This document shows positions 24-21,548 of a stretch of 38,449 nt of DNA, piece by piece (the stretch's first letter is position 1; every line of letters starts with the position of its first letter). The position numbers and the translations under genes were made by a program. Under the pieces are notes generated by a model. It searched no databases. It had not been told where the DNA came from and worked only from the letters and a program-made list of their open reading frames with translations. Source of the stretch: Porphyromonadaceae bacterium (lineage in GTDB: Bacteria > Bacteroidota > Bacteroidia > Bacteroidales > UBA12481); NCBI GenBank assembly GCA_007280905.1, contig QYQM01000155.1, positions 1-38,449 of the forward strand. The letters run 5' to 3'.

Positions 24-1424
24 ATGATCAAAAAAGAGGGATATGCTACCTGGCTTTTTGTTGTGTTCCCTGCAATCACAATGATGCTCGGATGGGGGCT
101 GAGGGGACATATTGGTGGTGGCCCTTTTGGTGCTATGATTCCCGGTGCACTGGTTGCATTAAGCATATCTATGTTATTGAAACTTCCTGCCGGAATGGCT
201 TCCGTATTTGTTGTCTTTGGTGCCGTGGGCATTGGGCTGGGAGGTGAAATGACGTATGGGCAAACCCTTGGTTTTTTGAAAAGCCCGGATACCATGTGGT
301 GGGGAACGCTCGGAACAACTGTGAAAGGTTCGGTTTGGGGTTTGCTTGGAGGAATTGTTATAGGAATTGGGCTGATTTATAATCGTTTGTCTAAAAGGAC
401 AATCATTACAGCTTTTTTATTGCTGCTCGCCGGAATGTTGATCGGCTTTAAACTCATCAACCAGCCAATGGTTGTCTATTTCTCCGATCCCGCCAATCCG
501 CGTTCGGAATCCTGGGGCGCTCTTCTGGTCGGGGCAATCGCTCTTTTAATATTTCTCAAAAACAAAATCGCGACTGACGGTTTTACAATCATTTCCCGCT
601 TTGCTTTTTGGGGATTGCTGGGCGGCGGATTAGGTTTCGGGCTTGGCGGCTTTTGGATGGTGCTGGGTTTCCATCTGCCTAATGAGGTTATTTTTCACAG
701 CTGGTGGAAGGCAATGGAATTTACTTTCGGTTTGCTGCTTGGAGGGGCCCTGGGGTACGCTGCATGGCTTAACAGGAAGGAAATTTTGCGGGACAAGGAA
801 AAGCTTGCTGATGAACCGATTTCAACCTCCAAAACAATCTTACAGGAATTTACGGTTACATTGATTGTAGGACTGTTGATTTATTGGGTTTTCTCTTCCT
901 GGTTAGATCCGGTCGTAGAGGCAGGCAAGGGTACTAAGGGATTCTCTATGATAGGATCAAGAGATATTGCCATTCTCCTTTCCAATTTCGCTTTTTTTGG
1001 ACTGATCATGATCCTTGCGGTGATGCGTTTCCCGACAGTGGCCTGGCAAATAGCGATTACCATAACTTTCTGTCATACGACTATCGACCTGATGAGCGGT
1101 TTGTATCCGGATACTGCATCCAGCTCTCCTGTTGCCACCCGGATTACATTGATTTTCCTTATGACAATAGCTGTTGCTGTCTTGACCGCCTATTTTCAAC
1201 GGCGAAAGAATATATTGCATACCCTGTTTCTGCTACTGGTTTGGTCCACCGTCACTATTTCTTTTTTAAGGCTGTTTATTAATCCCGAAAGTTTAAATAT
1301 TTCAGGTTTATCGTTTTGTAAAATTGTTTGCGGAAAATTTATTGTGGATATTATTTTTCTGGTTTCTGCTCTGATTGTTTCATTTATTTCATTTCAGAAA
1401 ATCCGGCAACCTCAAAAATCATAG
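24..1424 (+). CDS. Multi-pass inner-membrane protein of unknown function
   Basis: This is a 466-residue, strongly hydrophobic protein with roughly ten or more predicted membrane segments and many Gly-rich turns. An N-terminal signature, W-G-L-R-G-H-I-G-G-G-P-F-G near residues 25-37, precedes the first loops. No enzymatic motif or transporter-family signature is recognisable to me. It lies 20 bases (50 bases to the preferred start) before a GH3 glycosidase gene, so a role in sugar uptake or signalling is possible, but this rests on context only. The reading frame is also open upstream of the ATG to the window edge, so a longer N-terminus cannot be excluded. The hydrophobic start of the protein favours the ATG used here. 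Confidence 0.8.
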   Translation: MIKKEGYATWLFVVFPAITMMLGWGLRGHIGGGPFGAMIPGALVALSISMLLKLPAGMASVFVVFGAVGIGLGGEMTYGQTLGFLKSPDTMWWGTLGTTVKGSVWGLLGGIVIGIGLIYNRLSKRTIITAFLLLLAGMLIGFKLINQPMVVYFSDPANPRSESWGALLVGAIALLIFLKNKIATDGFTIISRFAFWGLLGGGLGFGLGGFWMVLGFHLPNEVIFHSWWKAMEFTFGLLLGGALGYAAWLNRKEILRDKEKLADEPISTSKTILQEFTVTLIVGLLIYWVFSSWLDPVVEAGKGTKGFSMIGSRDIAILLSNFAFFGLIMILAVMRFPTVAWQIAITITFCHTTIDLMSGLYPDTASSSPVATRITLIFLMTIAVAVLTAYFQRRKNILHTLFLLLVWSTVTISFLRLFINPESLNISGLSFCKIVCGKFIVDIIFLVSALIVSFISFQKIRQPQKS

Positions 1425-1474
1425 GTCATTATAAAATATAGAAAATGGAAGTACTGATAAGCAAATTAAAAAAT

Positions 1475-3859
1475 ATGAAAAAAATTGTACGATTACTATT
1501 ACTCATAACGATTTCACAACTGTTTCTGCAAGGCTGCAGCAGTAAAAAATCTCAATTGGGAGTCTTTCCACAGTTAGGAAAGGATAAGGTAGAGGATGTA
1601 ATAGCTGCAATGACACCAGAGGAAAAAATAGCACTAACGGTAGGAGTAGGGGATGGAAAAACGCCTCCTCCAGGAGTGCCGGCTTATAACCCGAAATCGT
1701 GCATCAGCATTGAAGATCATACATCTTCCAATAGTGCGCCACTCTTTACTCCTATTGTAGATGGTTGCGTTTGGGGTATACCCCGGTTGGGAATTAAATC
1801 TACCGTGATGGGAGGTGTTGCCATTGCCTGCACCAACCCCAATGATTCAGAACAAGAGATTCGATATACTGCTTTTCCCAGCGAAACATCTCTGGCTGCT
1901 ACTTGGAACACAGAGTTGATAGAAAAAGTGGGTGCGGCTATAGGTAACGAGGTGATAGAGTCGAATGTTGATATTATACTGGAACCGGGCTTGAATATAC
2001 ATCGCAATCCTATGTGTGGTCGTAACTTTGAGTACTTTTCGGAAGATCCATTGCTGTCTGGAAAAATTACAGCAGCTTATGTTCGGGGAGTGCAATCGCA
2101 AGGTGTCGGTACTGCCATCAAGCATTTTGCGGCAAACAATCAGGAAACCAATAGAAGAAGCTATGATGCGCTTATCAGTCAGCGGGCTTTGCGTGAAGTT
2201 TACCTGCGCGGATTTGAAATTGCTGTGAAAGAGGGTAATCCATGGTCAATCATGACCTCCTATAATAAATTTAATGGATACTATACCTCCGAAAACCCCG
2301 AACTGCTCAAAACCGTTGTTCGTGAGGAGTGGGGTTTCGATGGGCTGTTCATGACCGACTGGGACGGCCTGGGCAGTGCAGCGGCAAAGATAAGAGGTGG
2401 CACCAACCTCCTTATGAGTGGCAGTAAGGCCGAGGTTGAGGAACTTATGGCGGCCTTGAAAAACAAAACGCTTGATGAAAAAGAGATAAATAGGAGCCTG
2501 GAGTATGTTTTAAATTTTAAAATAAAAACTCCCCGGTTTAAGGGCTACAAACCATCATTAAATTTTGACAAGGTTGCGCATGAAACGCTGGCAAGAGAGT
2601 CTGCCGGTGAAGCTATAGTGCTGCTCAAGAATAACAACGCCACATTGCCATTCAACGATGATGTCAAAACAATTGCACTTTATAGTAAGGGCTCATACTA
2701 TTTTGTGGCCAGCGGAACGGGCAGCGGAGAGTCGAAGCCAAAGCTCTCTGTAACGGTTAACCAGGGGATAAAAAATGCGGGATTCCAGGTAGTAAAGTAC
2801 CTCGATGATACCTATACAAATTTTGTTGATACCATTCTGGCTAATAATAGCACCGTTGATGATTACTTTAAAAGGCGAATAGTTCCCTTCCATTCAGAAC
2901 TTAACCTGTCCAAAGCAACCATTGCACAGCAGGTATCAGGCTCTGACATTGCGGTTATTACGATTGCACGAACGGGAGGAGAAGGACACGATAATGGTTA
3001 TATTCCCCTGGACAAAGTGGAGCGGAATTTAGTGCGTGATGTGTGCGATGAATACCATGCTCATGGAAAGAAGGTGGTGGTAGTTCTTAATGTCGGAGGT
3101 GCCTTTGAAACAGCTAGCTGGAGAGACCTCCCCGATGCTATCCTTCTGGCCTGGCAAACAGGACAACAGGGTGGTAATGCTGTTGCAGATGTGTTAAAAG
3201 GAGATGTAAACCCCTCCGCGAAATTGCCTACATCATTCCCGATGAAATATGAAGATGTACCTTCTGCTCCAAATTTTATTGGAGAACCCGAATCTGAAAA
3301 AGTTAATATTAATCCTGTGCTATACAATGAGGGGATTTACGTGGGCTATCGCTACTACGACTCTTTTAATGTGCCTACTGCCTACGAATTTGGTTATGGT
3401 CTTTCGTATACAACCTTTGAGTACTCGAATCTAAAGTTGAGCAGCACAACCTTTGCCGATAAGATTAATGTAACCGTAACCGTAAAAAATACCGGAAAGC
3501 TGCCAGGCAAAGAGGTGGTTCAACTGTACCTTTCAGCCCCCGATGCAGAGATTGAGAAACCAATCCAGGAGCTAAAAGGATTTACCAAAACTCAGCTGCT
3601 GCTGCCAGGAGAGAGCCAGCTGCTATCATTTGAATTAGATGCCCGTTCACTGGCTTCCTTCTGGAGCGGTATGAGTGCATGGGTGGCAGATAAGGGTGAC
3701 TACCAGGTGCGTATCGGGTCTTCCTCAAAGGATATTCGCCTGCAAGTCTCGTTTACTTTACCAAAAGTGATGGTGGTGGAGAAGGTACATGACGTGATGT
3801 ATCCATACTCTTTACTGAATTTTGTGCTAGACGAATTGACTGTTAACAATAATAAATAA
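1475..3859 (+). CDS. GH3 family beta-glycosidase, lipoprotein
   Basis: This is a secreted exo-acting beta-glycosidase of family GH3, probably beta-glucosidase or beta-xylosidase like. From the preferred ATG the protein has 794 residues. A basic and hydrophobic leader ends in a lipobox L-Q-G-C with Cys21, predicting a lipid-anchored periplasmic or surface enzyme. An in-frame ATG 30 bases upstream would put ten extra residues before the leader, so I prefer 1475. The K-H-F-A-A-N-N segment and the nucleophile motif M-T-D-W with Asp295 mark the TIM-barrel domain. The second domain carries the expected G-G-E-G-H-D acid/base loop with Glu503, and a C-terminal fibronectin-III-like domain covers about the last 100 residues. 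Substrate cannot be deduced. It is 36 bases upstream of a second, fused GH3 gene. Confidence 0.93.
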   Translation: MKKIVRLLLLITISQLFLQGCSSKKSQLGVFPQLGKDKVEDVIAAMTPEEKIALTVGVGDGKTPPPGVPAYNPKSCISIEDHTSSNSAPLFTPIVDGCVWGIPRLGIKSTVMGGVAIACTNPNDSEQEIRYTAFPSETSLAATWNTELIEKVGAAIGNEVIESNVDIILEPGLNIHRNPMCGRNFEYFSEDPLLSGKITAAYVRGVQSQGVGTAIKHFAANNQETNRRSYDALISQRALREVYLRGFEIAVKEGNPWSIMTSYNKFNGYYTSENPELLKTVVREEWGFDGLFMTDWDGLGSAAAKIRGGTNLLMSGSKAEVEELMAALKNKTLDEKEINRSLEYVLNFKIKTPRFKGYKPSLNFDKVAHETLARESAGEAIVLLKNNNATLPFNDDVKTIALYSKGSYYFVASGTGSGESKPKLSVTVNQGIKNAGFQVVKYLDDTYTNFVDTILANNSTVDDYFKRRIVPFHSELNLSKATIAQQVSGSDIAVITIARTGGEGHDNGYIPLDKVERNLVRDVCDEYHAHGKKVVVVLNVGGAFETASWRDLPDAILLAWQTGQQGGNAVADVLKGDVNPSAKLPTSFPMKYEDVPSAPNFIGEPESEKVNINPVLYNEGIYVGYRYYDSFNVPTAYEFGYGLSYTTFEYSNLKLSSTTFADKINVTVTVKNTGKLPGKEVVQLYLSAPDAEIEKPIQELKGFTKTQLLLPGESQLLSFELDARSLASFWSGMSAWVADKGDYQVRIGSSSKDIRLQVSFTLPKVMVVEKVHDVMYPYSLLNFVLDELTVNNNK

Positions 3860-3895: not shown

Positions 3896-6800
3896 ATGAA
3901 AAAGATAAAATTCCATTGTGTTTTCCTTTTACTGCTTATTTGGTTCTGCGGTACTTTGGAAACCACTGCGCAAAATTATCTACCTCCCAATGGCGGAGGT
4001 TTCCCTGATCCTCAATTGAGCCAGAAAGATAATGATTACCTGAACCGGCAGGCAAAGGTATTTCTGGATACAGTACAGTCAATCCTTTCAGATTATCCGC
4101 CGATATTACCCGAGGGCAGAGAAAGAGGATTTGCCAAATTACTCATAGATGCTGTTTTTCACGAGCGTTATGCAGCTTTTAGAAAGCCTGCTCAGGCATT
4201 CTTTCATGCACAGACCAATCAACTGATTAAAGAGTTGGAAGAGATTAAGGTAGAGAATGGAGCAAAGATTTGGAAGGTATACAACATGGGATTTATTGTA
4301 CGTACAAAATCAGTCACACTTGCTTTTGATATTGTCAGGGGCGCAACTTCCGGATCAGCTGACTTTACATTATCAACCGACGAAATGGATCGTATTGTCA
4401 AACAATGTGATGTCTTGTTTATTAGTCATAAACATGCGGATCATGCAGACAAAGAGGTTGCCGAAGATTTTATCAGGCTGGGCCGACCGGTTGTGGCTCC
4501 TGAACAGGTTTGGAAAGATGATCCTGTCTTTTCACTGATCACCCATCTGGATCGGACCCCGGAGAAAGTTCAAAAACTCAAACTATCTGACAATTTCGTT
4601 CTGGATGTTATCATTTATCCCGGTCATCAATTGCGTTCAGCAGATAATAATGTTGCGTTGGTTAATACTCCGGAAGGAATAACAGTTGCCCATTTGGGCG
4701 ATCAGATTAATGAAGGTGATTTCATGATCGACTATGACTGGATCGATAAAATTGCTCAAAATCATCATGTTGATATTTTAATGCCTAATGCCTGGACGAT
4801 GGATATTTCCAGGATTGTCAGAGGTTTTAATCCGGAATTGGTAGTGCCGGGACATGAACTGGAACTGGGTCATACGGTTTGGGACAGACTGCCCTATTGG
4901 GGCGATGATGAATATCTGGAACTTAATTATTCAGAATTAAAAGCCTCCGGATATCCCGTTCTTGTGATGGTTTGGGGAGAATCGTATCAATATGATCCAA
5001 AACCTATTTATCTTGATTATAATCAATCCTTTAAAGTGCGTGTAGATGATTTGCTTTCCAGAATGACTCTGCAAGAGAAATTATCCCAGATGATGACCCG
5101 TACCCCAACTGAGCTAATGCGCTTCGGAATCCCCGGATATCAATGGGGCGGCGAGGCAGGCCATTGTGTCATTGCCCGTTCAGGTGATGTGGCCACCATA
5201 TTTCCCCAGGCCATTGCTCAAGCTGCCACATGGAATAAAAGGACCGTTTACGAAGTCGCTAATGCAATGTCAGATGAATCGAGGGCAAGGGTTCATGCGG
5301 GAATACCGAAAACCGGCCTTACTTTCTGGGCTCCCGTAGTGGAAATGGCCCGCGATCCGCGATGGGGAAGGACGGAGGAATGTTATGGGGAAGACCCGTA
5401 TTTAACGTCTCAGTTGAGTCTTGCTTTTGTAAAGGGCCTTCAGGGAGATCATCCCAAATATTTGAAAACCATAGCAGCACCAAAGCATTTTGCAGCGAAT
5501 AATGAGGAGTGGTGCCGCCATAACGGTTCTTCCGAAATTGATGAACAGCTATTGCACGAGTATTACCTTCGTCCTTATCAGGTCCTTGTTGAAGAGGGAA
5601 AAGTGGAGCAGATAATGGCTGCTTATAACAGGCTGAATGGCGTTCCTTGTGCTGGTAATAAACTTCTCTTGACTGATATTCTGCGTAATGATTGGGGCTT
5701 CGACGGAACTGTTGTTTCCGATTGCAATGGAATTAAAGATTTATATGAAGGACACAAATATGTCGCCAATGTTGAGGAAGCGATTGCGCTGGCATTAAAC
5801 TCAGGGCTTGATCTGGAGTGCGGTGATTGTTTTAAAGCATCTCTGGCCGAGGCTGTTAAAAAAGGTCTGGTTTCTGCAGCTACGATTGATACAGCCGTAC
5901 ACCGGATTCTTCTCTCCCGTTTTCGTTTAGGATTATACGATCCGCCTGAAATGGTGCCATACACAAAGATTCCTCATACCGTTGTAGATGGCCCTGAAAA
6001 TCGTGCCCTTGCCAGGAAAGCCGCCCGTGAGGCTATCGTGTTGTTAAAAAATGAGAACCATCTTTTGCCATTAAATATAAAGGAGGTCAAATCAGTTGCT
6101 GTTATTGGCCCCAATGCAGCTGTTTGCCAAATGGGCGGATACACAGGAGCGTATTCCAAAGCAGTTTCGCCCATTGAAGGAATTATAAACAGGCTCGACA
6201 ACGCTAAAGTCCATTACGTTAAAGGCACAGATATAAAAATTTCACTACCGGTTATACCAAACGAGTACCTGGTTCCGCCCGATGCCAAACCGGGAGAACA
6301 CGGTTTGCGGGGAGAATATTTCAACAATACGGATTGTTCAGGTGATCCTGTTTTGGTACGAATTGATCCGGTAATTGATTTTAATTTTGGCAGAGGTGCT
6401 CCTGATCCTGCAATCCCGATTGATTACTATTCTGTGAGGTGGACAGGCCGGTTTATTGCTCCGGCTTCAGGCACCTATTTTATTGGAGGTGATTTTGACG
6501 ATGCTATTCGCCTTTATCTTGATGGCAAAAAGATTATTGACAAAACAAACAACAGAAACCGGTCATCTGATGCAGTGAAAATTGAATTGGAGGCTGGAAA
6601 ACAGTATGACTTGAGAATTGAATATACCGAACAATGGTATAATGCCGCAGTCAAACTTTGGGGTGCACCTCAGAATCCTGATAAATTCAAAGAGGCAGTG
6701 GATGCTGCCCGAAATGCTGAGGTGGCAATTGTGGTTTTAGGTACAGATGAAAGCGTGGAAAAAGAAGGTGTTGACCGTTCAGACCTGGATTTGCCCGGTG

Positions 6801-7525
6801 ACCAGGAAGAATTGGTTAAGGCGGTGTACCAGGCCAATCCAAAAACCATTGTGGTATTGCAGAATGGAAGTGCCTTGTCCATTAACTGGCTGAAGGAGAA
6901 TGTTCCCGCGATTCTTGAAACCTGGTACAACGGTGAAGAAGCAGGAAATGCACTTGCCGACGTAATTTTCGGAGATTATAATCCCGGCGGAAGGTTGCCC
7001 TTGACGTTTTATAAATCGGCAGAACAATTTCCTTCGATCAGCGATTATGATATCAGGAAGGGACGGACTTACCTGTACCCAAATAACGGAAATGATAAAT
7101 CATCAATTAGTGAACCATTATATTCTTTCGGTTATGGGCTGAGCTACACTCAATTTAACTATGGACCCTTGCAGGTCATATCCAAAAAGATTGATGCGGC
7201 AGGAAGTGTAATAGTGAAAATTTCGATGAAAAATATTGGTGACCGCTTTGGAGACGAAGTGGTACAACTTTATGCAAGAGATGAAAAATCAAGTGTTCGC
7301 CGGCCTGATAAACAACTGGTTGGCTTTGAAAGGATTTCGCTTCAACCCAATGAGATTAAAACGGTTGAGTTTGTTTTTCCTGCAAAAGATTTGGCTTATT
7401 GGGATGTAAACAAAAAATCTTTTATCGTCGAACCGGGAGTATTTACGATTATGGCCGGTAGCTCCTCTGCAGATATAAGATCAACCGGGAAGTTTAGAAT
7501 TAAGACTATCAGCATGTTACCATAA
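3896..7525 (+). CDS. Metallo-beta-lactamase-fold / GH3 / PA14 fusion protein
   Basis: This is a 1209-residue protein with an N-terminal Sec signal ending near T-T-A-Q (about residue 26), so it is exported. Residues about 85-350 form a metallo-beta-lactamase-fold hydrolase: the H-K-H-A-D-H motif supplies His178, His180, Asp182 and His183, followed by A-H-L-G-D and V-P-G-H-E metal-ligand motifs. From about residue 380 a complete GH3 begins (D-D-L-L-S-R-M-T-L-Q-E-K), with nucleophile V-V-S-D at Asp609. A PA14 domain is inserted at about 800-925. The acid/base loop E-K-E-G-V-D-R (Glu957) follows, and an Fn3-like domain closes the protein. All catalytic residues of both enzymes appear intact. The MBL partner resembles UlaG-type lactonases in motif style, but its substrate is unknown. 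The fused architecture is unusual to me. Confidence 0.9.
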   Translation: MKKIKFHCVFLLLLIWFCGTLETTAQNYLPPNGGGFPDPQLSQKDNDYLNRQAKVFLDTVQSILSDYPPILPEGRERGFAKLLIDAVFHERYAAFRKPAQAFFHAQTNQLIKELEEIKVENGAKIWKVYNMGFIVRTKSVTLAFDIVRGATSGSADFTLSTDEMDRIVKQCDVLFISHKHADHADKEVAEDFIRLGRPVVAPEQVWKDDPVFSLITHLDRTPEKVQKLKLSDNFVLDVIIYPGHQLRSADNNVALVNTPEGITVAHLGDQINEGDFMIDYDWIDKIAQNHHVDILMPNAWTMDISRIVRGFNPELVVPGHELELGHTVWDRLPYWGDDEYLELNYSELKASGYPVLVMVWGESYQYDPKPIYLDYNQSFKVRVDDLLSRMTLQEKLSQMMTRTPTELMRFGIPGYQWGGEAGHCVIARSGDVATIFPQAIAQAATWNKRTVYEVANAMSDESRARVHAGIPKTGLTFWAPVVEMARDPRWGRTEECYGEDPYLTSQLSLAFVKGLQGDHPKYLKTIAAPKHFAANNEEWCRHNGSSEIDEQLLHEYYLRPYQVLVEEGKVEQIMAAYNRLNGVPCAGNKLLLTDILRNDWGFDGTVVSDCNGIKDLYEGHKYVANVEEAIALALNSGLDLECGDCFKASLAEAVKKGLVSAATIDTAVHRILLSRFRLGLYDPPEMVPYTKIPHTVVDGPENRALARKAAREAIVLLKNENHLLPLNIKEVKSVAVIGPNAAVCQMGGYTGAYSKAVSPIEGIINRLDNAKVHYVKGTDIKISLPVIPNEYLVPPDAKPGEHGLRGEYFNNTDCSGDPVLVRIDPVIDFNFGRGAPDPAIPIDYYSVRWTGRFIAPASGTYFIGGDFDDAIRLYLDGKKIIDKTNNRNRSSDAVKIELEAGKQYDLRIEYTEQWYNAAVKLWGAPQNPDKFKEAVDAARNAEVAIVVLGTDESVEKEGVDRSDLDLPGDQEELVKAVYQANPKTIVVLQNGSALSINWLKENVPAILETWYNGEEAGNALADVIFGDYNPGGRLPLTFYKSAEQFPSISDYDIRKGRTYLYPNNGNDKSSISEPLYSFGYGLSYTQFNYGPLQVISKKIDAAGSVIVKISMKNIGDRFGDEVVQLYARDEKSSVRRPDKQLVGFERISLQPNEIKTVEFVFPAKDLAYWDVNKKSFIVEPGVFTIMAGSSSADIRSTGKFRIKTISMLP

Positions 7526-7558: not shown

Positions 7559-10525
7559 ATGAGAGTAAGAAAATTTTCATCCTTCTTTTTTCTCTGTGGT
7601 TCTCTGTGGTCCTCCTTGGTCCTCTGTGTAATTTATTCACTTACACAGAGTTGCACAGAGGACCACAGAGAGCCACAGAGAAAGATTGATTACACCCACC
7701 TCGTTGATCCTTTCATCGGTACAGCCGGCGAGGGCAATACCTGGCCCGGTGCTTCGGTGCCTTTTGGTGCAGTCCAGCTGAGTCCGGATACCAACCTGGA
7801 AGGACATGCTATATACGGTGGGTATTATTATCCCGATTCCACTATTATCGGGTTTTCTCATACCCATTTAAGCGGTGTAGGTGAACCCGAATACCGCGAC
7901 CTGCTGTTTATGCCAACAACAGGCAAAGTCAAACTTAACCCAGGCATTGCAGAAGCCAAAGGTTCTGGCTTTCGATCCGCTTTCGATCATTCAGATGAAG
8001 CCGTATCTCCCGGTTATTACAGGGTTTTGCTGCGCGATTACGATGTGACCGCAGAATTGACTGCAACGCTAAGATGTGGCTTTCATAAATATACATTTCC
8101 AAAAACTGACAGTGCGCATATTGTAATTGATTTGGCTCATCCGGGAGGGGCCGAGGACCTTTATATCAAGAGGATCAGCGATTCTGAAATTGAAGGATTA
8201 CGCCGCTCTCACGGGTGGGCATGGGATCAATATGTTTATTTTGTTGCCAAATTTTCAAAACCATTTTCATCAATAGATATTGCGGTTAATGATTTAACAT
8301 TGGCAGGTTCATCCGAGGCCCGGGGTAAAAATGTTAAAGCCGTCATCAATTTTCAAACTAAAAAAGGAGAAGCCGTTCTGGTGAAAGTGGGAACATCGGC
8401 AGTGAGTGTTGATGGAGCCAGAAAAAACCTCGCTGAAGAAATCCAGGACTGGAATTTTAACCAGGTGGTAAGTGATGCCAAAAATTCCTGGAACAAGGAA
8501 TTGGCTAAAATTGAAGTTGAAGGAGGTACGCCGGAACAACAGAAAGTTTTTTACACCTCAATGTACCATGCGCTTTTAAGTCCGAATGTTTTTATGGACG
8601 TCGACGGCAAGTACCGTGGTGTGGATCATAAGGTACATGAGGGAAAGGACTTTACAAACTATACTGTATTTTCACTATGGGATACCTTCCGCGCGTTGCA
8701 CCCGATTTTCACTATTATCAACCAAAACAGAACCAACGATTTTATCAAATCCCTGCTCCGGATGTATGACGATGGCGGACGTCTCCCCATGTGGCCTCTT
8801 GCCGGAAATTATACCGACGATATGCTTGGATATCATGCCGTTCCGGTAATTGTTGATGCCTATATGAAAGGGATCAGGGATTATGACGTTCAAAAAGCTT
8901 TTAAAGCCGTGCGCCATAGTGCGGAACTTGATAAGCTGGGATTAAAATACTATAAAAAACTCGGGTACCTCCCTTTTGACCGACAGGGGGAGTCGGTTTC
9001 CAAAACCCTTGAGTATTGCTACGACGACTGGTGCATATCGCAGGTGGCCAAAGAAATGGGTTCAAAAGATGATTATTTGTACTATCATCTGCGGGCACAC
9101 TTTTATGAAAATGTAATTGACACTTCCACCGGATTCATGCGTGGACGCGCATTCGACAGAAGCTGGTTAGAGCCCTTTGATCCCATGATCAATTCAGCCT
9201 ACTCCGAGGGTAATGCGTGGCAATATATGTTTGTACCGCATGATGTAAATGGGTTGATCACGAAAATGGGTGGTGACCAGAAGTTTTCGCAATGGCTGGA
9301 TACCCTTTTCTCAATGAAATCCAAAGAAAAAGGGATGATCGGGCAATATGCTCATGGCAATGAACCGAGCCACCATCTGGCTTACCTCTATAATTATAGC
9401 GGACAAGCCTGGAAAACACAATACCTTGTTCATAAAATTTTGACTCAACTATATTCCGCAACTCCGGACGGACTTGCCGGCAATGAAGATTGCGGACAAA
9501 TGTCGGCCTGGTACATACTTAGCGCCATGGGTTTTTATTCAGTGACTCCCGGACAGAATATATATATTATCGGAAGTCCGCTTTTTGAAAGAGCCACAAT
9601 CAACCTTGAAAATGGCAAGACGTTCGTCATTCGCGCAAATAATATTTCTGATCAGAATATTTATATCCAATCATCCAAACTCAATGGACTCCCCTATACA
9701 AAATCATATATCAGCCATGATGATATTATGAATGGCAGAGAGCTGGTTCTCGAAATGGGGCCAAATCCAAGTAAGGCGTGGGGAACGGAGAAAAATGACC
9801 GGCCGTTTTCAGAGAATGGCACTGAGGTGGTTCAACCTCCCTTTATCAAATCGGGAGATTTACTATTCATTAATTCCTCTGTGGTCACTTTGGGATGCGA
9901 CACTGAGAATTCCATAATCCGGTATACTCTTGACGGATCGGAACCGAGTGAACAATCCGTTACTTATACCAAACCATTTGAACTTAAGGAATCTACCGTT
10001 CTGAAAATGCAATCATACCACAAAGAAATGAATCCCGGGATGGCGGTTACTTATGAATTTGAAAAAGCTGAGCTAAAGGAACCTGCATCGATTACTGAAA
10101 TTATGCCGGGATTGCATTATGATTATTATGAGCGGTTTTTTGTTTCGGCTGAAGACCTCGACCTGGTTGATCCGGTTTCTTCAGGCACTATAACTGATTT
10201 CAATATCAGTGAGTTGAAAAGAGAGAACTATTTTGGATTCAGGTATGCTGGATACATAAGGGTTTCCACGGATGGAATATATACCTTTTTCCTGAAATCG
10301 AATGACGGTAGCAGGTTATATCTTGATGGTGAGGAACTTATTGAAAACGATGGCAACCATGGAGCTATCGAGGAACCAGGCAGTATCGGGTTAAAAAAAG
10401 GCCTGCACAAAATAGAAGTTAAATATTTTCAATGTGGAGGCGGAAAAACATTAAAAGTGTGTTGGGCGGGACCCGGATTTGAAAGGCATGAAGTTCGGGC
10501 ACAAGAGCTGTTTATTGATAACTGA
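7559..10525 (+). CDS. GH92 family alpha-mannosidase with CHB_HEX_C and PA14 domains
   Basis: This is an exported, calcium-dependent exo-alpha-mannosidase of family GH92, the type used on yeast mannan or N-glycans. The 988-residue protein opens with a hydrophobic leader and a possible lipobox L-T-Q-S-C. Mature GH92 sequence then starts at D-P-F-I-G-T-A-G-E-G-N-T-W-P-G-A. The F-S-L-W-D-T-F-R motif and the G-N-E-D-C-G-Q-M-S-A-W-Y motif (Glu643, Asp644) are family hallmarks. After about residue 740 come a chitobiase/hexosaminidase C-terminal-like domain and a terminal PA14 module, both probably carbohydrate-binding. The leader codons lie inside a 43-base-arm inverted repeat, so the export signal may have been created or replaced by that repeat. 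Linkage specificity is not readable. Confidence 0.93.
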   Translation: MRVRKFSSFFFLCGSLWSSLVLCVIYSLTQSCTEDHREPQRKIDYTHLVDPFIGTAGEGNTWPGASVPFGAVQLSPDTNLEGHAIYGGYYYPDSTIIGFSHTHLSGVGEPEYRDLLFMPTTGKVKLNPGIAEAKGSGFRSAFDHSDEAVSPGYYRVLLRDYDVTAELTATLRCGFHKYTFPKTDSAHIVIDLAHPGGAEDLYIKRISDSEIEGLRRSHGWAWDQYVYFVAKFSKPFSSIDIAVNDLTLAGSSEARGKNVKAVINFQTKKGEAVLVKVGTSAVSVDGARKNLAEEIQDWNFNQVVSDAKNSWNKELAKIEVEGGTPEQQKVFYTSMYHALLSPNVFMDVDGKYRGVDHKVHEGKDFTNYTVFSLWDTFRALHPIFTIINQNRTNDFIKSLLRMYDDGGRLPMWPLAGNYTDDMLGYHAVPVIVDAYMKGIRDYDVQKAFKAVRHSAELDKLGLKYYKKLGYLPFDRQGESVSKTLEYCYDDWCISQVAKEMGSKDDYLYYHLRAHFYENVIDTSTGFMRGRAFDRSWLEPFDPMINSAYSEGNAWQYMFVPHDVNGLITKMGGDQKFSQWLDTLFSMKSKEKGMIGQYAHGNEPSHHLAYLYNYSGQAWKTQYLVHKILTQLYSATPDGLAGNEDCGQMSAWYILSAMGFYSVTPGQNIYIIGSPLFERATINLENGKTFVIRANNISDQNIYIQSSKLNGLPYTKSYISHDDIMNGRELVLEMGPNPSKAWGTEKNDRPFSENGTEVVQPPFIKSGDLLFINSSVVTLGCDTENSIIRYTLDGSEPSEQSVTYTKPFELKESTVLKMQSYHKEMNPGMAVTYEFEKAELKEPASITEIMPGLHYDYYERFFVSAEDLDLVDPVSSGTITDFNISELKRENYFGFRYAGYIRVSTDGIYTFFLKSNDGSRLYLDGEELIENDGNHGAIEEPGSIGLKKGLHKIEVKYFQCGGGKTLKVCWAGPGFERHEVRAQELFIDN
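7589..7683. repeat. Long imperfect palindrome inside the GH92 start region
   Basis: Arms 7589-7631 and 7641-7683 are reverse complements at 37 of 43 positions, around a 9-base loop. Each arm is built from short CTCTGTGG/CTCTGTGT-like units, so the element resembles a dispersed REP-like repeat. It is translated in the GH92 gene and encodes most of the signal peptide and the lipobox cysteine. Confidence 0.85.
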
Positions 10526-11408: not shown

Positions 11409-11439
11409 TTTGCTTAAATAAACAAATTGGCTATCTTTG
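11409..11439 (+). promoter_or_regulatory. Bacteroidota-type promoter for the mercury-type operon
   Basis: TTTG at 11409-11412 and TATCTTTG at 11432-11439 are separated by 19 bases, matching the TTTG/TAnnTTTG consensus of the Bacteroidota primary sigma factor. The first ATG (11445) lies only five bases after the -7 box. Transcription would therefore begin at or beside the start codon, giving a leaderless mRNA. This also excludes the upstream TTG at 11427 as a start. Confidence 0.7.
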
Positions 11440-11444
11440 TGCCC

Positions 11445-11819
11445 ATGGACAACAACTCTTGCATAAGACAACAGGCGGACATTAAACAAATAAACCGTTG
11501 TAAAGACAGAGTTTCAGAACTCAACGGCTCATTTGACTATTTATCAAACGGACTTGAATTGGCAGGTAATAACGTAAGACTGAAAATTCTCTTTATGCTT
11601 TACGAAGAGAAACGACTTTGTGTTTGCGACCTAAGCGACATTCTTGGAATGACAATTTCGGCAGTTTCACAGCATTTACGAAAACTCAAAGACCGTAAAC
11701 TCATTCAGACAGATCGAGAAGCACAGACCATTTTTTACTCATTGACAAAGGAGTATGAAATAATGCTAAAACCGTTTTTCAAAATACTTGACGAAAACAA
11801 AATCTTGGAAACAATATGA
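11445..11819 (+). CDS. ArsR/SmtB-family metal-sensing repressor (mercury-type operon)
   Basis: This is a 124-residue winged-helix repressor. The metal-binding motif L-C-V-C-D-L matches the alpha-3 CxC site of ArsR-type sensors, and the recognition helix I-S-A-V-S-Q-H-L-R-K-L follows. Two further cysteines near the N-terminus (N-S-C and R-C-K) could complete a thiol site. It overlaps the next gene, a MerTP transporter, by four bases, so it is likely an Hg(II)- or thiophilic-metal-responsive autorepressor of this three-gene operon. I chose the ATG at 11445 because the promoter -7 box covers the upstream TTG start. Metal specificity cannot be proven from sequence. Confidence 0.88.
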   Translation: MDNNSCIRQQADIKQINRCKDRVSELNGSFDYLSNGLELAGNNVRLKILFMLYEEKRLCVCDLSDILGMTISAVSQHLRKLKDRKLIQTDREAQTIFYSLTKEYEIMLKPFFKILDENKILETI

Positions 11820-12418
11820 AAACAGATAACAAATTAATCGGTGCAGGACTTTTGACAGCAATTGCCGCCTCATTGTGTTGCATAACGCCAGTTTTAGCTC
11901 TCATAGCGGGGACAACAAGCGGACTTGCTTCAACTTTTTCTTGGCTTGAACCTTTCCGACCGTATTTTATCGGTTTGACAATTTTGGTGCTTGGCTTCGC
12001 TTGGTATCAAAAACTAAAACCTAAAAAACAAATTGACTGCAACTGCGAGACAGACGAAAAACCAAAATTTATTCAGACAAAAATGTTTTTAGGAATTGTA
12101 ACTGCGTTTGCAATTATTATGCTTGCATTTCCTTACTATTCAAATATTTTCTACCCAAAAACAGAGAAGCAAATAATTGTAGTTGACAAATCCAACATTC
12201 AGAAGGTTGAGTTTACAATAAGCGGAATGACTTGTAACAGTTGTGCTGAACACGTTAATCACAAAGTGAATAAACTGACAGGAATTATATATTCAAATGC
12301 TTCCTACGACCAAGGAAACGCAATTATTGAGTTTGACAATTCCAAAACTAACATTACCGAAATAGAAAAAGCAATTAACTCAACAGGATATTCAGTAACC
12401 GACAAACAAGAGAAATAA
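11816..12418 (+). CDS. merTP: MerTP-type mercuric ion transport fusion protein
   Basis: This 200-residue protein joins a MerT-like membrane part to a MerP-like metal-binding domain. The first membrane helix carries the S-L-C-C-I-T-P cysteine pair used by MerT to take up Hg(II). A second helix and a cytoplasmic C-N-C pair (about residues 73-75) follow, then a third helix. The C-terminal heavy-metal-associated domain shows G-M-T-C-N-S-C. This arrangement is known in Bacteroidota mercury operons, where the fused MerP domain hands Hg(II) to the carrier. Its ATG overlaps the stop of the ArsR-family gene, so the two are co-translated. There is no merA reductase in the window, so imported mercury would need an enzyme encoded elsewhere, or the locus is incomplete. 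Confidence 0.85.
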   Translation: MKTDNKLIGAGLLTAIAASLCCITPVLALIAGTTSGLASTFSWLEPFRPYFIGLTILVLGFAWYQKLKPKKQIDCNCETDEKPKFIQTKMFLGIVTAFAIIMLAFPYYSNIFYPKTEKQIIVVDKSNIQKVEFTISGMTCNSCAEHVNHKVNKLTGIIYSNASYDQGNAIIEFDNSKTNITEIEKAINSTGYSVTDKQEK

Positions 12419-12419
12419 A

Positions 12420-12626
12420 ATGGAAATCATAACAAAATCAGTTATTACCTGCCCAAACTGCGGGCACAAAAAAGAAGAAGTAATGCCGACAGACGCTTGC
12501 CAATATTTTTACGAATGTGAAAACTGCAAGACTGTTCTGAAACCACAACAAGGCGACTGCTGTGTTTATTGCAGTTATGGTTCGGTAAAATGTCCTTCTA
12601 TTCAAGAGAAAAAGAGTTGTTGTTAA
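12420..12626 (+). CDS. GDCCVxC-domain small cysteine-rich protein
   Basis: A 68-residue cytosolic protein contains C-P-N-C, C-E-N-C, the family signature G-D-C-C-V-Y-C, and a terminal S-C-C. GDCCVxC proteins, some of them selenoproteins in other organisms, are commonly annotated beside mercury transport genes. Here all signature positions are cysteine codons and no in-frame TGA is used. It starts one base after the merTP stop, so it belongs to the same operon. A role as a thiol metallochaperone or mercury-binding factor is inferred from cysteine content and neighbours. The family's biochemical function is unknown to me. Confidence 0.8.
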   Translation: MEIITKSVITCPNCGHKKEEVMPTDACQYFYECENCKTVLKPQQGDCCVYCSYGSVKCPSIQEKKSCC

Positions 12627-12641
12627 CCGACAGAAAAAAAA

Positions 12642-13264
12642 GCCCAGCCGCCAATAAGTGAGGCTTCGTGTGGCGTAGCCTAACATGAAGCCGTGTTGCA
12701 CGAAATCCGGTTGTGCAGTCTCTGAAACGGTAAAAATCTATGGGGATTCAATAATTCCAGGCTATTCTGGAAGAGGGTAAGGCGATAATTTTCGACGGTG
12801 TTTGAGAACCGACAAATAGGAAAGAAGGATTTTAACAAGGCCATGGTAGCCTGATAATCATGATATTCGTAAAGCGCATATAATAGTTTATCCTGTCCTT
12901 CTCAGAACCTTCCCACAGCAGGGGCAGCTGTCCGGGCTGTAATTGAGATGCACCCACAAATTTGTTTCCAGTTTTTCTTTTCTAATACTTTCGGAACAGA
13001 GAGTCCAAATGCCTGTTGGAGCTCACGGAGCTCGGGTCGTTTTGCAGTGGGTAGTAGTCCATAATGCCGGATCCGGACAAATCCTTTTGGAAGAATATGT
13101 TGGCAGAACTGCCGAAGGAACTCCGCCCCACCGAGCGTCATTTCTTTTTGCCGGTCATCGCGGTAGTCACGATAACGGAAGCGAACGCCAGACTCGTCGA
13201 TAGTCAATAGCCGGTGGTTGCTGATAGCTACTTTGTGCGTGTAACGACCCAGATATTCCAACTG
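12642..13264 (-). mobile_element. IS91-family remnant, copy 1 (C-terminal transposase part only)
   Basis: This stretch matches the second copy at 17761-18345 almost base for base in two blocks: 12642-12773 with 17761-17913, and from about 12910 to 13263 with 17994-18345. In between, about 135 bases are unrelated. Copy 1 lacks the short GC-rich hairpin of copy 2 near its left end and has lost the entire N-terminal two thirds of the transposase. It directly follows the mercury-type operon and precedes the arsenic-like island. Confidence 0.8.
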
Positions 13265-13354
13265 ATGGGCAATTTGGGATTTGCTAGCACACATGTTGCA
13301 CATTTGTCTGTCCCCAGCCCATAAGCCAACACAAGAAGGCAGCCAAAAGAGCAA
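12902..13354 (-). pseudogene. IS91-family transposase fragment, C-terminal
   Basis: The minus frame encodes about 110 residues of the conserved C-terminal region of an IS91-type transposase: E-Y-L-G-R-Y-T-H-K-V-A-I-S-N-H-R, the R-F-R-Y-R-D-Y region, and I-R-H-Y-G-L. It matches the second copy in the window closely. The HUH histidines, the catalytic tyrosine context and the N-terminal zinc region are absent. The first 30 or so residues of this frame, upstream of E-Y-L-G, are unrelated sequence. It cannot be functional. Confidence 0.8.
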
Positions 13355-13430
13355 AATTTACTACCCTACTTAAATTTGAAAGTCTTGAGGAACACCATCT
13401 TAAAGTGTTAATAAAAAAATCTTTAAAAAA

Positions 13431-13460
13431 TTTGTACTTTAATTATTTTATATATCTTTG
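13431..13460 (+). promoter_or_regulatory. Promoter of the arsenic-like island
   Basis: TTTG at 13431-13434 and TATCTTTG at 13453-13460 are spaced by 18 bases, a strong Bacteroidota promoter. The imperfect palindrome 13460-13483 (GCAT...ATGC), which contains ATAAACAT, overlaps the likely transcription start and the ATG at 13480, a typical place for an ArsR operator. A second palindrome with the same ATAAACAT core occurs at 13829-13844. Confidence 0.65.
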
Positions 13461-13479
13461 CATCGATAAACATGTAGAT

Positions 13480-13806
13480 ATGCTTAAACACATTAAAAAT
13501 ATAAAACCAAGAAAAAAGGACGTATACTTATGTGAGGAGTGTTTGGAACTCTTCCGTGCTTTCGCAGATAAAACCCGTCAGGAAATTATTATGGTTTTTG
13601 CTACTAATAAGGAAATATGTGTTAATGATATTGCAAAAAACTTCACCTTGTCTCGTCCGACAATTTCCCATCATTTAAATTTAATGAAGCGAGCAAAAGT
13701 ACTTAACACTCGCAAAGATGGAAAGGAAGTATATTATTCTATTAATAAATCCTACATTAAAGGATTATTGACATCAATATTAGACAATATTGATAGTTGT
13801 TGTTAA
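13480..13806 (+). CDS. arsR: ArsR-family repressor with C-terminal Cys-Cys
   Basis: This is a 108-residue winged-helix regulator. The helix-turn-helix reads L-S-R-P-T-I-S-H-H-L-N-L-M-K. Cysteines lie at L-C-E-E-C near the N-terminus, at E-I-C-V-N-D (where classic ArsR has C-V-C), and as a C-C pair at the very end. The metal site is therefore not the canonical CxC. It may use the N-terminal CxxC with the C-terminal pair, as several variant arsenic sensors do. I prefer the ATG at 13480, because the upstream codons of the longer frame overlap the promoter. It is the first gene of the island and the presumed autoregulator. Confidence 0.85.
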   Translation: MLKHIKNIKPRKKDVYLCEECLELFRAFADKTRQEIIMVFATNKEICVNDIAKNFTLSRPTISHHLNLMKRAKVLNTRKDGKEVYYSINKSYIKGLLTSILDNIDSCC

Positions 13807-13828
13807 AAAAATTTAAAACTAGATGTCG

Positions 13829-13844
13829 AAATGTATAAACATTT
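13829..13844. promoter_or_regulatory. Candidate second ArsR operator palindrome
   Basis: AAATGT-ATAA-ACATTT is a palindrome with perfect 6-base arms. It lies between the arsR stop and the next gene and shares ATAAACAT with the palindrome over the arsR start. The shared core suggests a second binding site for the same repressor. This is inference only. Confidence 0.4.
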
Positions 13845-13911
13845 AAACTCTTAAACATATCAAATTATAAAGGAGATAGTATTACAATCTAAAAAAACCG
13901 CTTGTGGTTGT

Positions 13912-14310
13912 ATGTTACCAGTTAGTAATGGTGATTTAAAAACCAATGTTAACGAAACAGAATTAATTCAAAATGATAAAGAAAACTCAAAGGACATGTT
14001 AAATGTAATTATAATAAGTGCAGCCTGCTGTGTTCCCGGCATGGCTGCTTTTGACGAACAGGCACGAAAAGTCATAGATAAGGCAATTTCTGAAACAGGT
14101 ATAATTGCAAAAATCACAATGGTGCCTGCAACCTCCGCTATGTTCGGAGGTGCTTACCGCAAAATCATGAATGATATGATACAAATGAATAACAAAGGTA
14201 AAATCGTTGCCCCTGCTATTCTTATTAACAAAGAGGTTGTCTCTTATGGCGTACCAAATCTCGAAGACATGAAAACAGCATTAAAAAAATTTGCAGAAAA
14301 TAAAATTTAA
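13912..14310 (+). CDS. Small double-cysteine protein before ArsA, ArsD-like or thioredoxin-fold
   Basis: A 132-residue protein whose core (from about residue 30) reads N-V-I-I-I-S-A-A-C-C-V-P-G-M. Cys39 and Cys40 lie at the end of a beta strand, followed by a helix and a P-A-I-L-I-N-K-E-V strand-turn typical of thioredoxin-like folds. ArsD metallochaperones also present a vicinal cysteine pair and a similar fold and sit beside ArsA, so an ArsD-like role is plausible, but the sequence is not a clear ArsD. A strong AAAGGAG at 13869-13875 lies 36 bases before the ATG with no in-frame start at normal spacing. The intervening codons are open and read K-K-T-A-C-G-C-M, so the true N-terminus may differ. 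It ends 14 bases before arsA. Confidence 0.7.
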   Translation: MLPVSNGDLKTNVNETELIQNDKENSKDMLNVIIISAACCVPGMAAFDEQARKVIDKAISETGIIAKITMVPATSAMFGGAYRKIMNDMIQMNNKGKIVAPAILINKEVVSYGVPNLEDMKTALKKFAENKI

Positions 14311-14324
14311 ACAGAGAAATAATT

Positions 14325-15242
14325 ATGAATAAAGAATTAAGTAAAATTATGTTACCCGAAGAATCAACAAAATATTTATTCTTTGGCGGTAAAGGTGGAG
14401 TTGGTAAAACAACGATGGCAACAGCAACAGCTATATGGTTTGCCGACCACAATTATAAAACAACAATTGTCTCGACAGACCCTACTGTAAGTTTATCGGC
14501 AGTCTTTAATCAGCAAATTGGTGGAGACAGAGAAGTGCCTATTAACCATGTTCCGAATTTATGCGGATTGAATATTAATCCTGTTGATGCAAAAGGCGTC
14601 TTTCAAAAACGACTTAACAATATGATGTCGCAAATCAGCGGTACATTTGGTAATGACGTTGTAAGTACTCCCTGCATGGAAGAAATGGCAACATTTGACC
14701 AGTTTGTTTCATTTCTTGAAAATCCCGATTGCGATGTAATTGTATTTGATACTGCACCAACGGGAAAATCATTAAGAGAATTAGCCATGCCTTTTGATTG
14801 GGCTTCTTTCATGCAAAAACAAATACAAGAAGGGCAAAAATTGGCAGAACTATTACCTTCCGATGCTAATTATTTTGAGGATTTAGAACGAGATAAAAAA
14901 CGTTACGATTATGCAATGTCAGTTTTATGTAATAGTACTTCAACAGTTTTTTCTCTCGTGCTTTTACCTGAACGGTTGCCCATTGCAGAAACACAGAGTG
15001 CAATTGCAGGCTTAAAAAATCTTGGTATTCCGGTACAATCTTTAATCATTAACCAGTGTATTTTATCCGAAGTAATAGAAGGGAACCGCTTTTTAATAGC
15101 AAGAGCAAATTTACAAAAACGCTACCTTGCGGATATTGATACACGTTTCCCTGAGTTCATTAAAGTTCGGCTACCTTTATTAGATAGCGATGCTTCTGAT
15201 TTGTCCTCGTTGCGTCAAATAGGCAAGATAATCTATGGATAA
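14325..15242 (+). CDS. arsA: ArsA-family ATPase, single-domain
   Basis: A 305-residue deviant-Walker ATPase has a P-loop F-G-G-K-G-G-V-G-K-T-T (Lys28), a switch I motif V-S-T-D-P (Asp52), and F-D-T-A-P-T-G at 141-147. It has one nucleotide-binding half, unlike the duplicated E. coli ArsA. S-T-P-C-M-E-E-M-A-T-F-D-Q-F places Cys117 where E. coli ArsA has its metal-binding Cys113. The second ligand (E. coli Cys172) has no obvious counterpart. In known systems ArsA energises the ArsB or Acr3 efflux permease, yet no permease is encoded nearby. The Get3 tail-anchored targeting branch is the main alternative family member, but the ArsR and double-Cys neighbours favour a metalloid role. Confidence 0.85.
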   Translation: MNKELSKIMLPEESTKYLFFGGKGGVGKTTMATATAIWFADHNYKTTIVSTDPTVSLSAVFNQQIGGDREVPINHVPNLCGLNINPVDAKGVFQKRLNNMMSQISGTFGNDVVSTPCMEEMATFDQFVSFLENPDCDVIVFDTAPTGKSLRELAMPFDWASFMQKQIQEGQKLAELLPSDANYFEDLERDKKRYDYAMSVLCNSTSTVFSLVLLPERLPIAETQSAIAGLKNLGIPVQSLIINQCILSEVIEGNRFLIARANLQKRYLADIDTRFPEFIKVRLPLLDSDASDLSSLRQIGKIIYG

Positions 15243-15259
15243 TAATATTAAAATTTAAA

Positions 15260-15937
15260 ATGTATATGAAAAATCAACAATCTCAAAACGGAATAATAGA
15301 GGCTCCTTTGAAAGTCAGCAGAATTAGGACAATCTATAACATAGCAAGCAATTACTATTTTTTGGCTACTCTGATTGAAAAGAAACCTTTAATGAGAGGC
15401 ATTGAATTAGCAGAAATCAAACAAAATGATAAAGTCTTAGAAGTTGCTGTTGGTCTTGGGTTCAACTTTTTAGAATTTCTGAAAAGAGTAAACAGCGAAA
15501 ACATTGTTCATGGAATTGACCTTTCACCAAAAATGTTAGATAAAACAAAGAAACTGATAACTAAAAAAGGGTTCTCAAATTTCAAATTGAGTGAATCTGA
15601 TGCCCGTCAATTACCATTTCCAAATGATACTTTTGATATTTTGTTCAATAGCTATATGTTAGACCTTACACCGCTTAATGACTTTCCTGTTGTACTAAAT
15701 GAATTTTATCGTGTTCTTAAAAAAGGCGGGCGATTGATAACTGTTAATTTCAGCAAAAAAGATTGTTCACCAGTTTTTTCTGAGAAACTTTATAAATTAA
15801 CTCCTTCTTTATGGCATGGTTGCCGTCCGGTATTAATGGAATCTTTTATAAAACAAGCTGGTTTCAAAAATATTCAAAGAGAATTTCATAATGGTATTTT
15901 TACTTTACCCTCTGAAATTGTAATAAGTGTAAAATAA
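15260..15937 (+). CDS. Class I SAM-dependent methyltransferase (UbiE-like)
   Basis: This is a 225-residue Rossmann-fold methyltransferase. Motif I is V-L-E-V-A-V-G-L-G-F-N, in which the usual second glycine position is altered. H-G-I-D-L-S supplies the acidic residue that binds the SAM ribose, A-R-Q-L-P-F-P-N-D-T-F-D is the typical UbiE-style post-II segment, and R-V-L-K-K-G-G-R follows. The substrate is not readable: it lacks the cysteine set of characterised ArsM arsenite methyltransferases. It begins 17 bases after arsA and is followed 33 bases later by the ferredoxin/flavodoxin gene, so all are likely co-transcribed. The context suggests modification of a metalloid, a thiol or a carrier related to detoxification. 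Confidence 0.85.
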   Translation: MYMKNQQSQNGIIEAPLKVSRIRTIYNIASNYYFLATLIEKKPLMRGIELAEIKQNDKVLEVAVGLGFNFLEFLKRVNSENIVHGIDLSPKMLDKTKKLITKKGFSNFKLSESDARQLPFPNDTFDILFNSYMLDLTPLNDFPVVLNEFYRVLKKGGRLITVNFSKKDCSPVFSEKLYKLTPSLWHGCRPVLMESFIKQAGFKNIQREFHNGIFTLPSEIVISVK

Positions 15938-15970
15938 TAATATTTGTATTATAAAAATGAGCTTCTACAA

Positions 15971-16768
15971 ATGAGAGGTATTATTTGTTACTATTCAAAC
16001 TCTGGCAACACAAAATTAGCCTGTCAGTATATCGTAAAAAATATCAATAATATTGATTTCGTTTTTTTAAATATTGCTAAAGACAGTATTCCTGATTTAG
16101 ATATTTATAATATTGTTGGATTTGCTGCCTTCACAGATTTTTTTGGTCCATCAAAATTTGTTCAAACCTTTATAGAAAAATTACCCAGACAGAATAATAA
16201 ACCGGCGTTTGTGTTTAACACTTACGGTTTCATTAGTGGCAAAACACTCAAGATTCTCGATAAATGGGTTACTACAAGAGGCTTTAAAGTAATTGCAGGA
16301 TATTCTCTTCATACCCCGGAAAGTTATCCGCCGATGATTGCTAATGGTAGAGGTAATGAGCAAGCTCCCGGCGAAAAGGAAATGAATAAATTTAACTGTT
16401 TCATTTCTGAATTGAACCGACTTCTTTATACACTTGGTGAAGGTAAAGAAATCAAAAAAAATAAGATAAAGATTGGTTTATTTGAGATTTTATTACCCAT
16501 GTATTCTCGTACTAAAGCACGAAAAAATATGGGTGAAAAATATATTGATGAGGCACTTTGCACGGAATGCGGTACTTGTGAAAAGATATGTCCGTATGAA
16601 GCAATTAAACTTAGTCCGAAGCCTATTATTGATATGAATAAATGTTATGGATGCTGGGCTTGTTATAATCATTGTCCCGATAAGGCTATTTACACAAAAA
16701 AGTATCGGGGAATTGGTCACTATCCAAAACCTAATAGCCAATTGATGAAAAAATTGAAAGTCAAATGA
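15971..16768 (+). CDS. EFR1-family flavodoxin-ferredoxin fusion
   Basis: A 265-residue cytosolic electron carrier. The N-terminal domain is a flavodoxin with an FMN phosphate loop, Y-S-N-S-G-N-T-K. The C-terminal 70 residues contain two [4Fe-4S] motifs, C-T-E-C-G-T-C-E-K-I-C-P and C-Y-G-C-W-A-C-Y-N-H-C-P. EFR1 proteins with this order are widespread in anaerobes but mostly uncharacterised. I prefer the ATG at 15971 over an in-frame TTG 27 bases upstream, because the flavodoxin beta strand begins right after it. Set between two methyltransferase genes and after arsA, it would supply low-potential electrons to a redox step of this pathway, for example reduction of a metalloid before methylation. 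That role is inference. Confidence 0.85.
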   Translation: MRGIICYYSNSGNTKLACQYIVKNINNIDFVFLNIAKDSIPDLDIYNIVGFAAFTDFFGPSKFVQTFIEKLPRQNNKPAFVFNTYGFISGKTLKILDKWVTTRGFKVIAGYSLHTPESYPPMIANGRGNEQAPGEKEMNKFNCFISELNRLLYTLGEGKEIKKNKIKIGLFEILLPMYSRTKARKNMGEKYIDEALCTECGTCEKICPYEAIKLSPKPIIDMNKCYGCWACYNHCPDKAIYTKKYRGIGHYPKPNSQLMKKLKVK

Positions 16769-16840
16769 AAGAATAGATTTGTTTAATTACAGGTGCAACT
16801 TTTAGTGTAGGTAAAGAAATTGCAGTTGTTCCTATAAAAT
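16765..16840 (+). pseudogene. Short-chain dehydrogenase N-terminal remnant
   Basis: Reading from the ATG at 16765, which overlaps the end of the preceding gene, gives M-K-E-stop-I-C-L-I-T-G-A-T-F-S-V-G-K-E-I-A. The string I-T-G-A-T-x-x-x-G-K-E-I-A is the nucleotide-binding start of short-chain dehydrogenases, interrupted by one TAG. About 20 more codons without further resemblance lead into the methyltransferase start. It looks like a gene stump left by a deletion. Confidence 0.5.
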
Positions 16841-16893
16841 TGTGTTCAATAGTTGAAAAAAGTAAATATTTAATAATTAAAAGGAGAAAAAAC

Positions 16894-17703: not shown

Positions 17704-17926
17704 AAGATTAATATGACAAATAAACTGAAATGCAGGTATGATAAACGATTGATGATAATCGCCCAGTTGCTAATAAGTAAGGCTTCGTGTGGCGCAGCCT
17801 AACATGAAACCGTGTTGCACAGCCTGCCCCGCTGGAAGCGGGGAAATCCGGTTGTGCAGTCTCTGAAACGCTAAAAATCTAAGGGGATTCAATAATTCCA
17901 GGCTATTCTGGAAACGATTACGGATT

Positions 17927-20193: not shown

Positions 20194-20257
20194 CTTTTTT
20201 TTCATTCTTCTTGGTGGTAAAAGGCAATTTACGGGCCTTTTACTAAAAAGAACAACA

Positions 20258-21364: not shown

Positions 21365-21430
21365 CTAGATTAATAACTCAATAAACATGAAAAGGCATGA
21401 AAAATATACCACCTGACTGAAAGCTAAAAA

Positions 21431-21457: not shown

Positions 21458-21548
21458 CTGGTTCCGGAATTTGCCCGAAAACTTACTGCGAATAAGTAAA
21501 ATCGGGAAACACTGGTCTACCCCCCTTGCTTGCGGCAAGGAAGATAAA

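Follow-up and report, generated by a model that had tools for sequence, protein, structure and literature searches.

A metallo-beta-lactamase-fold domain and a GH3 glycoside hydrolase in one predicted exported protein of a Porphyromonadaceae bacterium

Multi-enzyme proteins of Bacteroidota polysaccharide loci are well known, and what is new in the protein described here is the pair of domains within one chain, in a single lineage. The beta-lactamase domain of RmNag3-type GH3 proteins belongs to the serine beta-lactamase superfamily, which is unrelated to the metallo-beta-lactamase (MBL) superfamily, and UlaG, an MBL-fold enzyme, is cytosolic. Going by titles and abstract openings, the known multi-catalytic enzymes include a CE15-GH8 protein (PMC8417218) and fused acetyl-feruloyl esterases (PMC7110780). 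RmNag3 of Rhodothermus marinus combines a signal peptide, a GH3 enzyme and a "beta-lactamase" domain (PMC6987092), and UlaG is a Mn-dependent lactonase with a side phosphodiesterase activity, whose hexamer is built through N- and C-terminal oligomerisation parts (PMC3219644).

We analysed a window of 38,449 nucleotides, positions 1-38,449 of contig QYQM01000155.1 (assembly GCA_007280905.1), in which one open reading frame joins an MBL-fold domain to a GH3 enzyme. Like the multi-catalytic enzymes above, this protein would place two catalytic domains of one glycan pathway in one exported chain; unlike them, it pairs an MBL with a glycoside hydrolase, a combination absent from the titles and abstract openings found. 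It also differs from RmNag3, in which the extra domain is C-terminal and sits on an N-acetyl-glucosaminidase GH3 of a different lineage (PMC6987092). The GH3 half shares its domain order, its catalytic residues and a PA14 domain inside the GH3 C-terminal domain with GH3 beta-xylosidases and beta-glucosidases (NF041776; Kluyveromyces beta-glucosidase I, 3abz), whereas it differs from those PA14/Fn3-like GH3s in having an MBL domain added at the N-terminus and no signal peptide of its own. The features are as follows.

24-1424, plus strand: first open reading frame of the gene run, membrane-protein-like, 466 aa, without a Pfam hit at E 0.1
1445-3859, plus strand: GH3a, upstream in the run (Pfam); 79.6% identical to positions 1129-3516 of a Bacteroidota MAG contig, JAUXUF010000179.1 (L017)
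3896-7525, plus strand: MBL-GH3 fusion gene, a single ATG-to-stop frame of 1209 aa (open reading frame list and Pfam)
3896-3970, plus strand: predicted signal peptide, residues 1-25, Sec type, no lipobox by eye (hydropathy; cleavage site inferred)
3971-4999, plus strand: MBL-fold domain, residues 26-368 (alignment, Pfam, predicted model, Foldseek)
4427-4444, plus strand: HxHxDH metal-binding motif, residues 178-183, invariant in 12 of 12 aligned rows
4997-5002, plus strand: join of P368, the last conserved MBL residue, to K369, the mature GH3 start
5078-5911, plus strand: GH3 N-terminal catalytic domain, with D609 at 5720-5722 (Pfam, residue check, comparison with 7zb3)
6035-7147, plus strand: GH3 C-terminal domain, with E957 at 6764-6766 (Pfam, residue check, comparison with 7zb3)
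6293-6634, plus strand: PA14 domain, inserted in the GH3 C-terminal domain (Pfam)
7256-7468, plus strand: Fn3-like domain (Pfam)
7559-10525, plus strand: GH92 (alpha-mannosidase-type) with PA14, downstream in the run (Pfam)

The 466-aa frame, GH3a, the fusion and GH92 form a tight run on one strand. In the hydropathy profile of the fused protein, residues 8-19 were the sole strong N-terminal hydrophobic stretch (mean 2.77) and no such stretch was present at the MBL/GH3 join, in agreement with a sequence-only reading of this DNA, which had proposed a single signal peptide for both enzymes. The MBL signal peptide most likely exports both enzymes as a single chain, with the periplasm as the probable destination. 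An exported GH3 translated on its own from an internal start was also considered and rejected: the first methionine after the join is residue 390, just ahead of the GH3 Pfam match, and no hydrophobic stretch follows nearby, so that a separately exported GH3 is not expected.

Both GH3 domains scored over the Pfam cut-offs in the fused protein (Glyco_hydro_3, residues 395-672, E 8e-52; Glyco_hydro_3_C, residues 714-1084, E 3.9e-64), and they were accompanied by an Fn3-like match (residues 1121-1191, E 1.4e-26) and a PA14 match (residues 800-913, E 2.5e-25). The latter lies within Glyco_hydro_3_C; the GH3 is complete, as had been read from the letters, but the PA14 module named there is an insertion and not a separate end module. 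In the closest PDB entry, the solved structure of the beta-xylosidase 7zb3, D609 of the N-terminal domain is matched by an Asp and E957 of the C-terminal domain by a Glu, and through these counterparts we take D609 and E957 to be the GH3 catalytic pair of nucleophile and acid/base. This GH3, which we call GH3b, is complete except that its own signal peptide is gone in the fusion. The closest NCBIfam model, Xyl3A, gave 705 bits against a cut-off of 1250, and GH3b stayed under every NCBIfam equivalog cut-off; our best guess is a beta-xylosidase- or beta-glucosidase-like specificity.

The MBL domain carries H178, H180, D182, H183, H244, D269 and H320 (motif H178-K-H180-A-D182-H183), the seven ligands of the metallo-beta-lactamase superfamily. 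Together with D609 and E957, which stand at the residue numbers given earlier, these bear out the claim that both enzymes keep their visible catalytic residues. Across 357 aligned columns, 12 MBL members shared 37 invariant residues, all seven ligands included. Where the other 11 rows all agree (37 columns of alignment A1), the window domain departed at 0 columns, joint lowest with locus L019; in an alignment of eight rows (A2) it departed at 1 of 86 such columns, the lowest value, and so it shows no sign of decay. The known profiles recognised it weakly: Lactamase_B_3 matched residues 161-275 of the whole protein with E 4e-4 and 20.8 bits, below its cut-off of 24 bits, and barely passed it (24.2 bits) when the MBL domain was scanned alone. 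Lactamase_B_3 and Lactamase_B_2 each gave weak matches to 11 of the 12 members (Pfam, E up to 0.1), and no NCBIfam model matched the window domain at E up to 0.1. PRK11709, the L-ascorbate-6-phosphate lactonase model of the UlaG family, likewise had no match to the window domain at E 0.1 and was weak in 6 of the 12 rows (best E 0.009).

In a predicted model built from the eight-row alignment (pLDDT 77.3, pTM 0.84), the domain adopts the MBL fold with N-terminal helices. The top Foldseek match was UlaG (2wyl, E 6.5e-11, 17% identity). UlaG reached a VIA Z of 19.5-20.0 against the model, and a Vibrio cholerae MBL protein, Igni18, UlaG, NAPE-PLD and CPSF-73-type nucleases were tied at a Z of about 19 to 20; because UlaG, NAPE-PLD and CPSF-73 are tied, the fold alone picks no function. 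Sequence searches of the PDB with the MBL domain alone returned chance matches only, and a profile search was weak (3kl7, E 0.002; UlaG 2wyl, E 0.083). Like UlaG (2wyl, 2wym; Vibrio cholerae 3bv6), the domain has the HxHxDH motif plus H, D and H ligands and, in the model, extra N-terminal helices. Unlike UlaG, it appears to be exported, and it is just 16-17% identical to 2wyl and 2wym; no ula genes were seen among the neighbours scanned (GH, Sus and other). The MBL domain is a member of a rare family of exported proteins for which UlaG is the closest solved fold. The earlier suggestion of a lactonase is in keeping with a lactonase as the nearest predicted structural relative, but is weakened by the low identity. 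A full-length model made for contacts between the domains had a mean pLDDT of 47.6 and a pTM of 0.37, too low for contacts to be read from it.

To see how rare this protein is, homologues were counted in several genome samples, which overlap and all of which, except the family of G716, take in the window's own genome. At the level of the order, 7 of 393 genomes carried the MBL; the figures were 4 of 395 for the phylum, 2 of 395 for the class and 1 of 16 for the family of G716. Within the window's own family it was present in 2 of 12, the window genome and G299. A first search of the order matched 13 of 295 genomes, of which six remained once five matches to the GH3 end only (G143, G229, G211, G064, G223) and the weak matches G262 (E 8e-5) and G047 (E 3e-4) were removed. 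One scan of genome contigs gave seven loci, and a plasmid search gave no match. The 16 distinct MBL loci (G000, which is the window, G067, G105, G162, G260, G272, G299, G421, G636, G716 and L015-L020; L021, judged by length and match to be the same contig as G260, was counted once with it) comprise one fused frame, that of the window, one broken frame (G067) and 14 standalone frames of 330-422 aa, with L021 ending at its contig edge. A common MBL-GH3 family was rejected as an explanation, as no second fused member turned up among the 16 loci. Judged by title or abstract opening, the papers found by searches for MBL with GH3, fused or in polysaccharide loci, likewise described no MBL-GH3 protein. 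The architecture is thus not that of a common family, in keeping with the sequence-only reading, which did not recognise it.

The genes around the standalone MBLs, scanned as 20 chosen open reading frames, differ between loci. At L049, SusC/SusD-like frames, assigned by reading, lie near the MBL and a metallophosphatase precedes it; at L050, GH38 and GH92 are near, the GH92 two genes off; GH31 and a Gfo/Idh/MocA oxidoreductase are neighbours of the MBL of L018; and a BT_1020-like protein (L020), a sugar-isomerase-like TIM barrel (L047) and a sulfatase following the MBL (L048) were seen elsewhere. Among the chosen frames near the MBLs of L016 and L051, no recognised glycan genes were found. Taken together, the neighbours speak for a probable glycan-linked role of the MBL.

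The origin of the fusion is best seen in L017, where the MBL and GH3b are adjacent separate genes in the same order as in the window (67% and 77% identical to the window halves, respectively) and GH3b has its own hydrophobic N-terminal stretch. Measured from the last conserved MBL residue to the first residue of mature GH3, the window is 249 bp shorter than L017, where this extra DNA comprises the MBL tail and stop, a spacer and the GH3 signal peptide. The join of the window, a YDPKPIYLDYNQ-like stretch, brings the conserved YxP end of the standalone MBLs exactly up to the beginning of mature GH3. At L015 the gene order is GH3a-MBL-DUF5009-GH3b. The proposal that MBL and GH3 are a new pairing therefore fails at the level of genes, as they are already neighbours in L017 and stand with one gene between them in L015. 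GH3b of the window, of L017 and of G302, a genome of the same genus, formed one group in the tree (100/99). An alignment that included the partial L015 GH3 (A3) was set aside, as that row looked misplaced (43% identity instead of 67%). In G302, GH3b keeps a signal peptide and comes straight after GH3a, and that genome gave no match to the MBL, which shows that GH3b can do without the MBL. G302 also has a fusion of its own: GH3 and GH92 lie in one frame of 1818 aa (L053, 1220-6673) that lacks the stop of GH3 and the signal peptide of GH92, and the window GH92 is 76.8% identical to the GH92 half. The same operon thus carries, within one genus, two different fusions at neighbouring joints, each without the stop and the next signal peptide.

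We propose that the ancestor had neighbouring genes for two exported enzymes, a UlaG-like MBL hydrolase and a GH3 exo-glycosidase, and that a deletion of about 250 bp, a figure measured against L017 as a relative and not against the ancestor, took away the end of the MBL gene with its stop, along with the spacer and the stretch for the GH3 signal peptide. Both halves would from then on be exported as one chain by the signal peptide of the MBL, most likely to the periplasm. There, the MBL may strip a substituent (a lactone, ester or phosphodiester) from the same oligosaccharide from which GH3 would remove the terminal beta-linked sugar, and the fusion would fix the MBL:GH3 ratio and hold the two close. 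We infer that both domains are active on a shared substrate; the likely role is to export two steps of periplasmic glycan degradation together. As a whole, a genuine, lineage-specific fusion by deletion with both domains working on one glycan pathway is the best explanation, and we regard it as reasonably probable. More tentatively, the MBL may represent an unrecognised exported family that removes glycan decorations in Bacteroidota polysaccharide loci, with the GH3 fusion naming its partner.

It is quite improbable that the cell has two separate genes and that the assembler skipped the spacer and signal peptide, an error near position 5000 that the sequence-only reading had raised as a way for the fusion to fail. 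The source assembly has 185 contigs, the adjacent pair is unfused in the one relative that has it (L017) and, among the 16 loci, fused homologues besides the window number zero, all of which would fit such a slip. However, a skip would need to preserve the frame and strike both domain edges, GC by codon position is alike in the two halves (0.553/0.328/0.366 for MBL, 0.544/0.395/0.390 for GH3), and the genome is rated 99.27% complete and 0.56% contaminated; the window contains no N letters. As the reading frame runs on through the join, and the join lies at the edge of each domain, we consider a deletion that fused the genes far more probable than a mistake in assembly. The two fusions of the operon could in principle reflect selection or a deletion-prone stretch, or both could be assembly faults.

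If the fusion is real, it might still be neutral, with the MBL a passenger without a role in the GH3 pathway. The presence of GH3b without any MBL match in G302 fits this, as does the broken and shortened GH31 of the window, which indicates that deletions occur here, and the other, unlike fusion of G302 may point to a deletion-prone operon; yet the MBL has lost none of its ligands and matches all 37 columns on which the other 11 rows agree, and its gene lies next to GH3b in L017 and close to it in L015, and we consider a passenger rather unlikely. A sharper form of the shared-pathway proposal is that the MBL is a phosphodiesterase or sulfatase-like enzyme that takes charged groups off a mannose-containing glycan, of which GH92 and GH3 trim the rest. 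The GH92 after the window fusion and that two genes from the MBL in L050 point this way, together with the metallophosphatase before the MBL in L049, the sulfatase after it in L048 and the side phosphodiesterase activity given for UlaG (PMC3219644), whereas the neighbours are not constant across loci and the sequence likeness to UlaG is just 16-17%; this specific form seems unlikely. The fusion itself looks real and is uncommon, but is a modest variation on the usual fusions of sugar-degrading enzymes.

Should the fusion be real and functional, it would link an uncharacterised family of exported MBLs with GH3 in one pathway, and the MBL substrate could be searched for among decorated GH3 substrates or GH3 products. 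The MBL-GH3 protein of the window and the GH3-GH92 protein of G302 would then form a small natural series from the same operon, showing how multi-enzyme proteins of polysaccharide loci arise when a stop and the signal peptide after it are lost.

Elsewhere in the window, the GH3/GH92 run is separated from the next polysaccharide locus by a metal-resistance-like stretch (11427-18877) with two ArsR-type regulators, a MerT/HMA protein, an ArsA-type ATPase and two methyltransferases, closed by an IS91-type transposase. The second locus (19630-33885) encodes an ECF sigma factor, FecR, SusC, SusD, SusE/F, GH66, a broken GH31 and a rhamnosidase-like protein. Its GH31 is in pieces, at 29790-30257 and then at 30265-31131, the latter reaching no further than position 223 of the 328 in the profile; the gene after it starts at 31195. 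Downstream of this locus lies a DUF5694 protein (34510-35352).
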